NCBI GenBank assembly: GCA_018333525.1
Contig: JAGXTF010000088.1
Coordinates: 1 to 64,000 of the forward strand
Source: Bacteroidota bacterium
GTDB taxonomy: Bacteria > Bacteroidota > Bacteroidia > NS11-12g > UBA955
DNA length: 64,000 nucleotides
Reading direction: 5' to 3'
Shown: positions 5,799 to 17,745 of the stretch, piece by piece
How positions within the stretch are numbered: position 1 is the first letter of the stretch
Layout of the letters: every line of letters starts with the position of its first letter
Position numbers and translations under genes: made by a program
Notes under the pieces: generated by a model
Seen by the model: only the letters and a program-made list of their open reading frames with translations
Told to the model about the DNA's origin: nothing
Databases searched by the model: none

Positions 5799-5852
5799 CG
5801 GTTTGTCATTTTTTTTGCTTGCCAGGGCCGCAAAAAAATCGCCAAACCGCCA
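5799..5852 (-). repeat. Dispersed palindromic hairpin element, copy 1
   Basis: In the 5673-6015 gap. Read on the minus strand it is TTTGGCGATTTTTTTGC, an 11-base spacer, then GCAAAAAAAATGACAAA. The two arms are near-complementary. The same two arms occur in the opposite orientation at 60902-60942 with a different, 7-base spacer. The rest of the gap is AT-rich and shows no gene. Confidence 0.6.
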
Positions 5853-5948
5853 GCCCAAGCTCCATTTTAAATGGTGCTATTTTTATGGAATCTAAATTAA
5901 TACCTACTTAGTATATACCATATAATCCAATATCCCTGTAATTAAAAG

Positions 5949-5971
5949 TTAAAATATTCTGAATATTTTAA
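5949..5971. repeat. Perfect 23-bp AT-rich palindrome
   Basis: TTAAAATATTC, T, GAATATTTTAA: 11-base arms around one base. It lies 45 bases downstream of the nhaA stop. It could end transcription of nhaA or bind a regulator; nothing decides between these. Confidence 0.45.
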
Positions 5972-6015
5972 TAATTAAAACGATTTTTATTTTACAACTT
6001 CAGCAATGAATGAAT

Positions 6016-7221
6016 TTAATTAAGAGTATCTATTTTTCTGGAAGGATATGCCAACAATAAATAACCCAAAAATGCAGCTAATGCGGATGCAATCAGTATG
6101 GCAATCTTGCCCAGGTCTATCATGTTTTTCTCATCAAAAGCAAGATTGGTAACAAAAATAGACATCGTAAATCCAATTCCTCCAAGAATGCCTGCACCAA
6201 GCAGTTTCCGGTTGGTAATGTTTGTTGGAATTTGGGACCATTTCAATCGTTGACTGCCCTTGGAAAATAAATAAATCCCTATAGGTTTCCCAAAGAATAA
6301 TCCAAGAATAATTCCCAAACTTTCAGGTCCCAAAAGGTCAGGTATCATTTCTGATCTAATTTCAATTGCCGTATTCGCAAGAGCAAATATGGGAATGATA
6401 AAAATATTTACTGGTTTTTGAAGAAATTTTTCCAGAATATGTGCGGCGGAATTATGTCCTCCGCCTTCAAATGGAATCGCGATAGCCAGCAATACTCCGG
6501 CCATGGTAGCATGTATGCCTGAGTGCAACATAAAATACCACAACAATATCCCCAATGGCAAATAATACCAAAGGGATTTCATTTTTAATTTATTAAATAG
6601 CATCAACAAAGCAAATAAAGCCAATGTTAGAATTAAATAAAATCCTGAAAACTCAGTACCATAAAAAACTGCAATTAAAATGATTGCACCCAAATCATCC
6701 ATGATTGCCAGTGCAGTTAGAAATACTTTCAATGCATTGGGTATTTTATTCCCCAGCAGGCCTAATATAGCAATGGCAAATGCAATATCAGTTGCCGTTG
6801 GAATCCCTGCCCCAATAATCGTCTCCGGAGAATTTACGTTGCAAATAAAATAAATCACCGCCGGTACTATCATACCTCCAATTGCTGCGATTACAGGAAG
6901 TATTGCAGTTTTTTTATTGCTGAGTTCACCAACCAGAAATTCTCTTTTTATTTCCAATCCAACCAATAGAAAAAACAAAGCCATCAACCCTTCATTAATC
7001 CAGGCAGAAAGACTGTGTTCTAATTGCACAGGTCCTGCGTGTACAGGCATACTTGTGTCCCAGAAATTGCGGTAATCAATACCTCCAATACTGTTGGCAG
7101 TAAAAAGGGATATCAATGTACACAGTAAAAGCAGGATACCTCCGGTCTGGCTACCTGTAAAGAAGCCTTTAAAAAGTGCGGTGATTTTAAATTCGCTAAC
7201 CTCTCTAATTTTTCTTACCAT
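6016..7221 (-). CDS. nhaA: Na+/H+ antiporter NhaA
   Basis: 401 residues from the ATG at 7221-7219; a longer in-frame start at 7275 would overlap the divergent ribD start and adds a poor N-terminus. Inner-membrane protein with about 12 hydrophobic segments. Hallmarks of NhaA are present: 'GLMALFFLLVGLEIKREFLVGEL', the ion-binding aspartate in 'GIPTATDIAFAIAIL', and the aspartate pair in 'ALAIMDDLGAIILIAVFY'. The C-terminal helices 'GAGILGGIGFTMSIFVTNLAF' also match. It exchanges sodium for protons for pH and salt homeostasis. Transcribed alone, divergently from ribD. Confidence 0.96.
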   Translation of the reverse strand: MVRKIREVSEFKITALFKGFFTGSQTGGILLLLCTLISLFTANSIGGIDYRNFWDTSMPVHAGPVQLEHSLSAWINEGLMALFFLLVGLEIKREFLVGELSNKKTAILPVIAAIGGMIVPAVIYFICNVNSPETIIGAGIPTATDIAFAIAILGLLGNKIPNALKVFLTALAIMDDLGAIILIAVFYGTEFSGFYLILTLALFALLMLFNKLKMKSLWYYLPLGILLWYFMLHSGIHATMAGVLLAIAIPFEGGGHNSAAHILEKFLQKPVNIFIIPIFALANTAIEIRSEMIPDLLGPESLGIILGLFFGKPIGIYLFSKGSQRLKWSQIPTNITNRKLLGAGILGGIGFTMSIFVTNLAFDEKNMIDLGKIAILIASALAAFLGYLLLAYPSRKIDTLN

Positions 7222-13809: not shown

Positions 13810-13817
13810 TATTTTTG
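13810..13817 (+). promoter_or_regulatory. TAnnTTTG -7 box before the Hsp70 operon
   Basis: TATTTTTG, 28 bases before the start of the small first gene of the Hsp70 triad, in the only gap between that operon and the GT9 gene. No obvious -33 TTG. Confidence 0.42.
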
Positions 13818-13845
13818 CATTTTATAAATTTATTATAAGATTCTG

Positions 13846-14157
13846 ATGAAAGACGTTATTGACATTATAAACCAACTGGCACAACTGGAATTGCGGATAA
13901 AAGGAACTGCAGATGAAGGCGCATGTGAAAGAAATTTTTCCCGCATTAAAGAGTCCTTAAAAAATATGGGATATGATTATAAACTTCCCCTGTATGAAAA
14001 ATATGCAGAAACCAGTACCGATTTGGAAGCGACGATTACAGGAACAAACACTGAAAATCTGATTATCAAAAATATTGTGAAACCTATAATTTACAGGGAC
14101 AACAAATTGGAACAAAAGGGAATTGTGATGGTGGAGGCTGCGAATGAAAACCATTAA
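13846..14157 (+). CDS. Small protein of the Hsp70 triad, possibly GrpE-like
   Basis: 103 residues, acidic and soluble, no signal peptide. The N-terminal 40 residues look helical (MKDVIDIINQLAQLELRI). The C-terminal end, 'NLIIKNIVKPIIYRDNKL' followed by 'KGIVMVEA', resembles by eye the beta-wing of GrpE that ends in 'RPAxVxVA', but the length is about half of GrpE. It overlaps the Hsp70 gene by 14 bases, so the two are made together. A minimal nucleotide-exchange factor is a guess; otherwise function is unknown. Confidence 0.6.
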   Translation: MKDVIDIINQLAQLELRIKGTADEGACERNFSRIKESLKNMGYDYKLPLYEKYAETSTDLEATITGTNTENLIIKNIVKPIIYRDNKLEQKGIVMVEAANENH

Positions 14158-16651
14158 TTTTGGTATTGATCTGGGAACTACAAACTCCCTGATAGCCCGC
14201 TATTCACAAGGTAAAACAGAGGTATTTAAAAATCCGGTTGGGTTTAAGGAGACGTTGCCCAGCTGTGTGGCATTTCGGGGCGAGCGAATTATAGTAGGAG
14301 ACAAGGCAAGGGAATGGGTGCAAAAGGATCCGTTAAATGTTTTTTCTGCATTCAAAAGAAAAATGGGTACAGGAGAAAAATATTTTATTCCTGCCAAACT
14401 CGAATCTATTTCGGCTATTGAACTAAGCGCAATGGTTTTGCGCGAGTTGAAGAATTTCATCTATTCCGGTGAAAACCCGGAGAGTATGGTTATTACCATT
14501 CCTGCAAGTTTTGATACCGTTCAAAGCAATGCAACCAAGCAAGCCGGTTATCAGGCAGGATTCAAGGAGGTGGTATTGTTACAGGAGCCTATAGCTGCCA
14601 GTCTTTCTTTTTTCAACAATCGAGCCCAAATAGACCAGGGAAAATGGCTGGTGTATGATTTGGGTGGAGGAACCTTTGATGCCGCAATTATTGAGGTGGT
14701 GAACGGTGAAATGAAAGTATTGGACCATCAGGGAGATAATTTTTTAGGTGGTGTGGACATAGACCATATTATGGTGACAGAATTGCTCATTCCCAAATTG
14801 ATAGAGCTAAGTGGAAAGCCGGATTTGGCAGATCATATTGCAACTCGCAACGGCCCGTACGAACGTTTGTATTATATTTTGTTACAAAAAGCTGAAGAAT
14901 GTAAAAAGGAATTAAGCAGCCAGCTTGTTTCTGAAATTGATTTTACATTTGAGATTCCGGGTGAGGCGCCGATGGATATTTTTATGGAAATACCGCGATC
15001 GGAATTTGAAATATTAATTGATCCGATAATATCCAATTCTACAGGTATGATTGCGGAATTGTTAGAGCGGAATGAATTGGAAAGCAAAGATATTTCAGAA
15101 ATTATTTTAATTGGTGGCAGTACATTAATACCCTTGGTGCGAGAGAAGCTGGAATCTGAATTTGAAATTCCTTTAAATTATTCCGTAGATCCAACCAATG
15201 CTGTTGCAATAGGTGCAGCTTATTACGCCGGTACCAAAATGGCCCGATTGGAAGAAAAAACGGAAGAACAGGAGCAGGGACAAGAAATTCCCGATGCTCC
15301 TTTATTGGAATTCAAACTTGCATATAACAATTCCACAAGGGATAATGAAGAATATGTAAAGGCAGTAATTCTTGGTAAAAATCCGGCGGTGTTTTACCGT
15401 ATACTTCGCCAGGATGGAGGCTATGATAGTGGTCTGAAACAATTAAAAGGGAATGACTTTGGTGAATTTGTAAGTTTGAGAGAGCAAACTGTAAACGTAT
15501 TTCATATCCGTTTTTATGATGAAAATCAGAACGAAATAAAAACGGGATCTAATAAGATAGAAATCACCCAGGGTTTGTACAGCCTTTATGGACAGCCACT
15601 TCCGGAGGATATTTGTCTGGAAGTTGATGATTTGGAAAACAATACTACAATTTGCGAACTGGTATTCAAACGCAACAGCATTTTGCCTTTGAGCAAAACG
15701 ATTTATAAAGAAATTTCGCGCACCATAAAAACCGGAGAAAAGGACAGTATAATTATCAACCTTTTGGAAGGCGATCACACCACACATCCCAATGCAAATA
15801 AGATTATCGGTGTTATAGAAATTGCGAATGACAAACTCAACGGACAAGTGGTGCGTGGAAGTGAAGTGGAAATAAAAATAGAAATTAGTGAAAGCAGGGA
15901 TGTGCATGTAAATGCCACCATATTATTTACCAATCAGGAGTTTTCTGAAGTATTTAGTCCAACGGAAAAGTATGTGAGTATTTCGAAATTAAAAGAGGAA
16001 ATTATTCAATTGCGGGATGAGTTTGAAATTGCGCTGCATAAGGCGGCGGATGATGAAGATTTTGAAAATGCCCAACATATCATGAATTCCATTTCGGATT
16101 TGGACAATTTGCAGAAAGATGCTTTAAAACTGAGGGATGGGGACTTGACCGATACCCGATATCAGTTGGAAGAGCAAAAGAGAAAAATTGCGAAACACTA
16201 TTACAATACACGAGGCAAAAATACGCGGGTGCAATCGGAAATGATGGAATATACCGACAGCCGAAATGCAATCAGGAACTGGTTGGATACTATTGATGAT
16301 ATTCCGGAAGATTTGCACAAAAGATTTGATAAAATTACCGAAAAAGAGCATGATATTCTGAAATCAAATAGTTATTTTTTAATTAAAAGTCAAAATAATG
16401 CTTTGAATCGCCTGGCTTGGAGAATGATTTTAAAATCCGCACATCTCACCACCACATATTTTCATATTTATGCAGAAAAGGATGAAACGGAATTTACCAA
16501 TTATTCTCTGGCTAAAAAGGCCATTTCACGAGGAGAAAAGGCACTTGACAGGCAAAATTTTATTGAATTAAGCAGTGTGTTGAGTGAGTTGATGGGGCTG
16601 TCCAAATCCTCGCAAGCAGAGTACTTTATAAAAGGAACCGGTTTGGGGTAA
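14144..16651 (+). CDS. Divergent Hsp70 (DnaK-like) chaperone
   Basis: 835 residues. The N-terminal ATPase domain (about 1-385) is intact: phosphate-1 'GIDLGTTNSLIARY', phosphate-2 'VYDLGGGTFDAAIIEV' (about 170-185) and adenosine 'EIILIGGSTLIPLVREKL'. About 130 residues of unfamiliar beta-rich sequence then precede a recognisable substrate-binding beta region near 511-610 ('NSILPLSKTIYKEI', 'INLLEGDHTT', 'NKIIGVIEI'). The C-terminal 220 residues are helical and charged, larger than the DnaK lid. The C-terminus is not the EEVD-like tail of housekeeping DnaK. Both neighbours overlap it (14 bases and 1 base), forming a dedicated operon. Probably a specialised chaperone. Confidence 0.88.
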   Translation: MKTINFGIDLGTTNSLIARYSQGKTEVFKNPVGFKETLPSCVAFRGERIIVGDKAREWVQKDPLNVFSAFKRKMGTGEKYFIPAKLESISAIELSAMVLRELKNFIYSGENPESMVITIPASFDTVQSNATKQAGYQAGFKEVVLLQEPIAASLSFFNNRAQIDQGKWLVYDLGGGTFDAAIIEVVNGEMKVLDHQGDNFLGGVDIDHIMVTELLIPKLIELSGKPDLADHIATRNGPYERLYYILLQKAEECKKELSSQLVSEIDFTFEIPGEAPMDIFMEIPRSEFEILIDPIISNSTGMIAELLERNELESKDISEIILIGGSTLIPLVREKLESEFEIPLNYSVDPTNAVAIGAAYYAGTKMARLEEKTEEQEQGQEIPDAPLLEFKLAYNNSTRDNEEYVKAVILGKNPAVFYRILRQDGGYDSGLKQLKGNDFGEFVSLREQTVNVFHIRFYDENQNEIKTGSNKIEITQGLYSLYGQPLPEDICLEVDDLENNTTICELVFKRNSILPLSKTIYKEISRTIKTGEKDSIIINLLEGDHTTHPNANKIIGVIEIANDKLNGQVVRGSEVEIKIEISESRDVHVNATILFTNQEFSEVFSPTEKYVSISKLKEEIIQLRDEFEIALHKAADDEDFENAQHIMNSISDLDNLQKDALKLRDGDLTDTRYQLEEQKRKIAKHYYNTRGKNTRVQSEMMEYTDSRNAIRNWLDTIDDIPEDLHKRFDKITEKEHDILKSNSYFLIKSQNNALNRLAWRMILKSAHLTTTYFHIYAEKDETEFTNYSLAKKAISRGEKALDRQNFIELSSVLSELMGLSKSSQAEYFIKGTGLG

Positions 16652-17745
16652 TGCCATACCATTCGCCATTACATATTCTTGAAGCCCTGCATCTGGATCC
16701 TGAAAATTTAGATGATGAAGGAATTACGCGCCTTCGAAAAAAAATCCTGACAGAATTTCAAATTACCAGCGATTATACCATTAAAATTGGAGGAAAAGAC
16801 TTTACAAAAGATGCGGTTTTGAAGTCTGTTGATGCATTAAGGGAGTTGGAAGGTAAAAATGCGCATTTGTTTATATTTCGAAATAAGGATCTGCTTGCAT
16901 TTTGTGAAAATCCGGAAAAGGCGACCAACCCCTATCAGAAGGTATCCAGCGTAATTGGAGAAAATGAAGATGCTGTATTAAAAGGAATTTTAGTGGATGC
17001 AGAACTGGAATACTTTCAATTTATTCTCCGAAACAACCATTACAAACATGCTTTTGCTTTTTATAATTGGTTTATGGGTTTGGAAAATACCTATCATTTC
17101 AGGATGGAGGAGATCATTGTAAGACATACCCGTAGAGTGATTTCCCATTTAGAAATAGAGGATAAAAATGTAATCAGGACCGAATACAAAAATTCCCAGT
17201 ATTTATGGATTGTAGAAGGGAGTTGGGTTGAATTTTACAATAATTTGAACGAAGATTTTGAATTCCTGATTAACGAACTGGCATTGTGTATGATCAACTT
17301 TGCCGTTGCTTTTCAAGGAGTTCATGTAAAATTTCTGGTGCGAATGAGTAAAAAAATGCTCATGATGCAATGTGATGAAGAATATAAAAATATTTTAAGA
17401 AGAAATCACAAAATATATGCAGAAAACGATGAATCATCTTTGAAATCTTTTGGCTTTCGGTCTGTATTTGCAATTATTTGGGTAATAGTTTTGATTTTTC
17501 GGTGTAACAATTCCTGTAATTCTACTTCAGATTTTTCGCGTCACAACTATGACAGAATAGATTATCAAATTCCAAAAGACATATTGAATTCTGAAAATTA
17601 CCAGCGGCTGAAAAGAATGGCGGATAGTCTGCATCAAGCAAGATTGGGAACCAATAATGCGGATACTGTGAGAATAAAAGTAAAGAAATGGAAGCCGGAT
17701 ACCACGAAGATGCCTGCATGGTCAGGAGATTCCCTAAAACACTGA
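16651..17745 (+). CDS. Unknown protein with one transmembrane segment, Hsp70 partner
   Basis: 364 residues, coupled to the Hsp70 gene by a TAATG overlap. Residues 1-265 are soluble and charged, with no recognised domain and no HPD motif, so it is not a classical J-protein. A single hydrophobic helix near 268-284 ('SVFAIIWVIVLIF') is followed by 'RCNNSCNS' and a polar 75-residue tail ending 'WSGDSLKH'. It could tether the Hsp70 to the membrane or present clients to it; this is inferred from operon position only. Confidence 0.7.
   Translation: MPYHSPLHILEALHLDPENLDDEGITRLRKKILTEFQITSDYTIKIGGKDFTKDAVLKSVDALRELEGKNAHLFIFRNKDLLAFCENPEKATNPYQKVSSVIGENEDAVLKGILVDAELEYFQFILRNNHYKHAFAFYNWFMGLENTYHFRMEEIIVRHTRRVISHLEIEDKNVIRTEYKNSQYLWIVEGSWVEFYNNLNEDFEFLINELALCMINFAVAFQGVHVKFLVRMSKKMLMMQCDEEYKNILRRNHKIYAENDESSLKSFGFRSVFAIIWVIVLIFRCNNSCNSTSDFSRHNYDRIDYQIPKDILNSENYQRLKRMADSLHQARLGTNNADTVRIKVKKWKPDTTKMPAWSGDSLKH

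Follow-up and report, generated by a model that had tools for sequence, protein, structure and literature searches.

A conserved three-gene Hsp70 operon of Bacteroidota with a reduced GrpE and a membrane-anchored, probably J-like partner

The HPD motif of J-domain proteins is regarded as the trigger that defines Hsp70 action and never varies. Beside the housekeeping DnaK-DnaJ-GrpE system, the described Hsp70 sets that come closest to the locus reported here are the mitochondrial import motor, in which a membrane-placed Hsp70 is combined with a GrpE-type factor and a J-like domain that has degenerated (Pam16, Pam18, mtHsp70 and Mge1; PMC5773037); the GAP1-N2 GTPase conflict systems, in which an accessory HSP70, a GrpE and a J partner, a DnaJ-fused FNIII protein, share one locus (PMC7159879); and the cyanobacterial DnaK1-DnaJ3-GrpE set, a specialised bacterial Hsp70 set at a membrane machine, the type IV pilus motors (PMC9239167). 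Here we describe an operon in a 64,000-nucleotide stretch of DNA from a Bacteroidota bacterium (the window, contig C88 of a 3.7 Mb genome in 118 contigs), which encodes a divergent Hsp70 between a small GrpE-type protein, here called mini-GrpE, and a membrane protein. It is a real, conserved and unannotated Hsp70 triad, and we estimate at about two in three the probability that it constitutes a dedicated, membrane-tethered Hsp70 machine beside the housekeeping system, in which the signalling from the J side to Hsp70 would be rewired. The three genes are:

13846..14157, plus strand: mini-GrpE gene, 103 residues (open reading frame)
14144..16651, plus strand: divergent Hsp70 gene, 835 residues (open reading frame and Pfam HSP70)
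16651..17745, plus strand: gene of a membrane-anchored, probably J-like protein, 364 residues (open reading frame, profile comparison and hydropathy)

The three genes are co-directional, and their coordinates confirm the arrangement proposed in an earlier note made from the sequence alone, namely a three-gene operon with overlaps of 14 bases between the first two genes (14144-14157) and of a single base between the second and third (16651, in TAATG); the first ATG lies 36 bases downstream of 13810, the start that the note had named. The promoter pattern of Bacteroidota had eight matches in the window against 6.9 expected, none of them upstream of the operon. A glycosyltransferase gene precedes the operon at a distance of 47 bases. 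The Hsp70 profile matched five places in this genome, including an ordinary DnaK (contig C59) and an HscA-like gene (C101), and the genome also carries one ordinary GrpE, which adjoins DnaJ on C89, and three J-domain places; because of these ordinary DnaK, HscA-like, GrpE and DnaJ genes, the operon is additional to the housekeeping system. When the three proteins were scanned singly against Pfam, NCBIfam and PADLOC, the sole match was to the Hsp70 ATPase domain, and among the matches listed from PubMed Central literature, which leaves out most subscription papers and all preprints, none was a paper on the operon.

The 103-residue protein gave nothing convincing in single-sequence scans (Pfam, NCBIfam and a PDB sequence search). 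It is a GrpE so divergent that its scores stay under the cut-offs of Pfam and NCBIfam. An hhalign comparison between a profile of 34 small proteins (the alignment leaves out that of locus L034, where the gene is interrupted) and 29 Bacteroidota GrpE scored 47.0 (E 3.7e-7) over 103 columns, reaching the GrpE C-terminus; by comparison, 100 column shuffles scored at most 19.1, the reversed profile 17.1 and eleven unrelated profiles at most 20.0. An AlphaFold (AF2) model computed from four sequences (the window, L009, L043 and L044) had a predicted local distance difference test score (pLDDT) of 87.7 and a predicted template modelling score of 0.78, and its two short helices (residues 2-18 and 24-40) and six-strand beta domain represent the bundle helices and C-terminal beta wing of a GrpE. 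The twelve top-ranked PDB entries in a Foldseek search were all GrpE or GrpEL1, the best with E 2.1e-3 and probability 1.00 (none fell under E 0.001), and VIA-align superposed the model on E. coli GrpE (1dkg_B, residues 89-195) with Z 9.4 and a root-mean-square deviation of 3.8 over 97 residues, the best row that was not a GrpE having Z 4.0. Since residue 1 of the model corresponds to GrpE residue 89, and the list of open reading frames holds no upstream coding extension, the protein is a GrpE homologue short of full length, without the first ~88 residues that form the disordered tail and coiled coil; in E. coli GrpE these parts help to eject substrate and to sense heat (PMC12915176). We are thus almost certain of the homology of the small protein to GrpE, of which it keeps the C-terminal body, and profile and model predict that it very probably acts as a minimal nucleotide exchange factor.

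Among relatives further away, the GrpE-like domain ends proteins of 212-323 residues, all eight of which have a predicted membrane or signal span, and one of the longer ones (L128) matched Pfam GrpE over almost the whole profile with E 0.0057, below the curated cut-off. In L128, L129, L131, L132, L138, L139 and L140 (300-323 residues) the domain lies behind a predicted signal/coiled-coil region and a membrane span, and this fused variant is apparently a membrane-anchored exchange factor.

The Hsp70 itself has the architecture that the earlier note had recognised, with an intact ATPase domain, an extra region and a C-terminal tail, and can be divided as follows:

14159..15235, plus strand: ATPase domain, residues 6-364 (Pfam, motifs intact)
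14573..14575, plus strand: codon of V144, at the position of DnaK R167, the catalytic E minus 4 (alignment)
15236..15601, plus strand: insert, residues ~365-486, separating the ATPase domain from the substrate domain (without profile match)
15602..16285, plus strand: substrate-binding domain, beta part ~487-592 and helical part to ~714 (hhalign)
16286..16648, plus strand: extra C-terminal tail, residues ~715-835, beyond the part aligned with DnaK

Pfam HSP70 matched residues 6-364 only (E=1.5e-68), where the phosphate and adenosine motifs are intact (GIDLGTTNS at 7, VYDLGGGTFD at 170 and GGST at 324), and the protein missed the NCBIfam DnaK cut-off with 232.1 bits against the 822.55 required. 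The insert matched none of the profiles compared; a DGG.D.G motif is kept in it (10 relatives), and the hydrophobic linker pattern of the DnaK type was found in none of the family members. A search of the PDB with the sequence of the C-terminal part gave nothing convincing, and a profile of that part (41 sequences) aligned with 28 DnaK over residues ~487-714, which correspond to the beta substrate-binding domain and lid of DnaK (score 67.4, E 8.5e-9; beta part alone 57.9; 30 shuffles at most 19.3). The ~120 residues that remain C-terminal of this had a low score of 21.0 against the DnaK C-terminus. In a tree of ATPase domains, 46 family members, including plasmid ones, formed one clade apart from 12 DnaK and one HscA (support 0.893). 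DnaK R167 pairs with the aspartate of HPD, as reported in PMC7289447; this position is R in all 28 DnaK and in one of the 45 readable among 47 family members, a count that omits L130 (QEQ) and L137 (LEP), where a regular expression missed the active-site motif and where no R is seen by eye. At locus L129 (4795-9783) a tandem pair of Hsp70 genes follows one GrpE-like gene, and the downstream protein (818 residues) may be ATPase-dead, judging from INYGIYFNDS at its beginning in place of DLGTTNS.

The third protein, called a single-pass membrane protein in the earlier note, does have one strong span, with a further borderline hydrophobic stretch at residues 203-221:

16663..16878, plus strand: J-like domain, residues 5-76, without HPD (hhalign)
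17449..17505, plus strand: transmembrane span, residues 267-285 (hydropathy 2.04)

At least one span was found in 26 of 29 members of the family. In the wider Hsp70 relatives a protein of the same locus begins with a J-like domain of the form 'NP..iLg ... lFWf' (13 collected), and hhalign matched the third-family N-terminus to nine such domains, termed type a, along 72 columns with a score of 30.8 (E 1.7e-5) and, in the opposite direction, 39.3; the best shuffle had 16.4 and the best unrelated profile 18.7. Compared with 28 DnaJ J-domains, type a scored 27.0 along a 22-column stretch of helix I, where no shuffle exceeded 15.5; type b scored 22.1 against canonical J domains over 44 columns (shuffles at most 13.5). 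The HPD motif is present in 28 of 28 DnaJ and absent from all 29 third proteins and all 13 J-like domains. As its first ~76 residues match J-like domains that have no HPD, the third protein probably fills the DnaJ slot, and its sequence makes it rather likely to be J-derived. A profile search of the J-like domains in the PDB gave weak and mixed matches, including 2cug (E 0.81) and 7vpx (E 3.8), presumably both J-domain entries, which we did not use as evidence. In the earlier note neither DnaJ nor GrpE had been recognisable, and the two neighbours had been proposed as replacements, a minimal exchange factor and a membrane tether or client adaptor. The exchange factor is retained, as a divergent and reduced GrpE recognisable by profile and model rather than as a replacement for GrpE, and the membrane anchor is retained too, whereas a tether or adaptor alone would not account for the J-like match.

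A family-wide scan of 16 third proteins gave a single match, to a TonB C-terminal domain (E 2.6e-18) in L030, a member of the third family identified as TonB-bearing by its sequence. There (5842-7185) the TonB domain comes after the membrane span, which suggests, as far as the sequence can tell, that the N-terminal domain probably faces the cytoplasm; it also hints at an envelope side that differs between members and might reach outer-membrane transporters. Genome G225 has six third-family matches, and L136 has two tandem third copies beside one Hsp70, as if several adaptors shared one chaperone.

The C-terminal profile of the Hsp70 had matches in 27 of the 395 class genomes and in 13 of 395 of a phylum sample. 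Linkage was scored in 25 close loci, made up of 21 strong loci of the class (cut at E < 1e-90, the next row having E 7e-35) and four further strong loci of the phylum; G179 (a contig-end fragment) and G156 (a weak match, E 6.7e-4) were left out of the counts, 11 far loci were scored separately and L144 stood outside the scoring. Hsp70 is immediately preceded by a same-strand mini-GrpE gene in 22 of the 25 (interrupted in one), and because of this conservation we ruled out that the 103-residue open reading frame is spurious. The third gene is at most 1.7 kb away in 20 of the 25, with varying order and strand (19 by the standard profile search, L123 being added at E 6.5e-12 with filters off), and a GrpE-like gene lies upstream in nine of the 11 far loci. 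A chance neighbourhood was ruled out (Fisher p 2.4e-23); since the related genomes in this test are not independent and the profile derives partly from the same loci, we place more weight on a single-sequence search with the window's third protein, which matched 14 of 395 genomes, 13 of them with a strong (close) Hsp70. Across Bacteroidota these three families are found side by side again and again, a neighbourhood beyond chance, so that the survey proposed in the earlier note came out in favour of genes that travel together and not of genes that are rarely neighbours; the profile and structure-based searches it had proposed likewise led from the small protein to GrpE and from the third N-terminus to J-like domains. 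Within 57 near relatives, the window genome included, the third gene occurs only in the window genome and in G032 (2/57), which has the full operon, and the distribution is thus sporadic yet linked. The gene order third, small, Hsp70 (L121, L124, L133 and L034) mirrors the order J-like, GrpE-like, Hsp70 in L043 and L144.

Hsp70 relatives also occur on plasmids of Pseudomonas, Aminobacter, Vibrio, Polaromonas, Sinorhizobium and Haliscomenobacter and on IMG/VR contigs, and in the first five plasmid records the upstream gene (~114-123 residues), the counterpart of the small partner, goes as a hypothetical protein in public annotation. Two IMG/VR loci and those of Vibrio and Haliscomenobacter have an AAA ATPase gene after Hsp70; TerB and BREX genes are next to the Haliscomenobacter one, and ZorA is near that of Polaromonas. 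The plasmid relatives L144, L148 and L149 have BREX, ZorA or restriction-type genes nearby, suggesting possible links to defence islands. On the IMG/VR contig L043 (1-14463), J-like, GrpE-like, Hsp70 and AAA genes lie among open reading frames that by eye resemble those of phage tails or contractile-injection baseplates; a search of phage records with a plasmid relative of the Hsp70 C-terminus found no match.

Several observations weigh against a dedicated, rewired membrane machine. The third gene is unlinked in five of the 25 close loci, all in family f3 and each with a third homologue elsewhere in the genome, and mini-GrpE was not found at three (L125-L127). At L034 (8733-10352, genome G207) the mini-GrpE gene is split by an insertion sequence of ~1.1 kb carrying reverse-strand open reading frames that by eye resemble an IS3-type transposase, and because of this interruption the G207 triad may be inactive. 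One family member, L120, retains R at the R167 position, and three of the 29 third-family proteins have no span by a simple hydropathy measure. The similarity of the J-like domains to J domains is mainly confined to helix I, the N-terminal domain of the third family has no match in Pfam, NCBIfam or the PDB, its direct comparison with canonical J domains scored 17.8, within the range of shuffles (maximum 19.7), and an AF2 model of the third protein from two sequences was unusable (pLDDT 39.7). The insignificant direct match, the unusable model and the lack of HPD throughout the family would all suit a third protein with a helical, non-J N-terminus and no role beyond that of membrane tether or client adaptor, leaving the Hsp70 to cycle alone with mini-GrpE; the significant match, along the entire domain, to J-like domains in the same operon slot speaks the other way, and we consider this explanation unlikely.

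We give somewhat less credence to a module for stress or anti-phage defence in place of a general chaperone: the AAA/kinase and TerB genes of the wider relatives, their BREX, ZorA or restriction-type neighbours and the sporadic distribution (the 27 of 395 genomes) would fit it, but the window's neighbours resemble housekeeping genes when their open reading frames are judged by eye, and PADLOC was negative on the three proteins. The ordinary DnaJ and GrpE of the genome would fit an Hsp70 that uses the housekeeping DnaJ, with mini-GrpE and the third protein as accessory specificity factors; however, the Hsp70 has lost the arginine that pairs with HPD and has a region of ~120 residues between its ATPase and substrate domains where DnaK has a short linker, which makes this quite improbable.

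Based on the fact that HPD is lost in the partner and the arginine in the Hsp70, and that the linker is displaced by the insert, we favour a membrane-tethered machine whose J side would be rewired, these apparently coordinated losses, a correlation between sequences, being the strongest argument for the rewiring. The GrpE homology of the small protein, the Hsp70 architecture, the linkage, the membrane span and the losses of HPD and of the R167 equivalent are computational results. For the J-like function and for the binding partners, location and clients of the triad, we infer a cycle of the following kind. The membrane-anchored J-like protein would keep Hsp70 on the cytoplasmic side of the inner membrane, promoting client capture and ATP hydrolysis through a contact other than the HPD-arginine pair, the mini-GrpE wing would open the ATPase domain and so release ADP, and the variable C-terminal domain beyond the membrane (TonB-like in the one relative) might sense or contact an envelope partner. 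As mini-GrpE has neither the coiled coil (heat sensor) nor the tail (substrate ejection), the cycle would be less dependent on temperature and the release of clients altered. No HPD-bearing partner was seen in the window operon, so the J-like domain would act by another contact or would be the docking part only, as in the tether explanation. Any specific physiological role we propose with less confidence than the J derivation of the third protein.

More broadly, we would tentatively suggest, while thinking it somewhat less than an even bet, that more than one bacterial phylum has Hsp70 triads of a second class, orthogonal to the familiar one: both sides would have given up the otherwise universal HPD-arginine trigger for a different contact, possibly via the insert, nucleotide exchange would be left to a mini-GrpE without a heat sensor and, in Bacteroidota, the J-like partner would tie the triad to the inner membrane and to envelope signals. 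Hsp70 may then be switched on in an unfamiliar way in bacteria, and the pairing of an arginine-less Hsp70 family with HPD-less J-like proteins offers a direct test of whether HPD is dispensable and of an alternative J drive. Mini-GrpE, from which the presumed heat-sensing coiled coil and substrate-releasing tail are gone, is in turn a test, set up by nature, of which GrpE parts are required.

With DnaK-DnaJ-GrpE the window triad has in common the Hsp70 ATPase and substrate domains, a GrpE-type exchange factor and a probable J-related partner; it differs in a GrpE cut to its C-terminal body, an inserted region in Hsp70, a partner anchored in the membrane, and the absence of both HPD and HPD's arginine partner. 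The GAP1-N2 systems are described from Actinobacteria and Firmicutes and come with GTPases (PMC7159879), and no GTPase was seen beside the window operon, whereas the cyanobacterial set draws on the only GrpE of the cell and on a DnaJ homologue annotated as such (PMC9239167). In the mitochondrial import motor the J-like domain of Pam16 is reported to be unable to stimulate Hsp70 and pairs with a true J protein, Pam18 (PMC5773037), a counterpart of which, bearing HPD, was not found in the window operon. By analogy, this motor would be the closest functional parallel to the triad.

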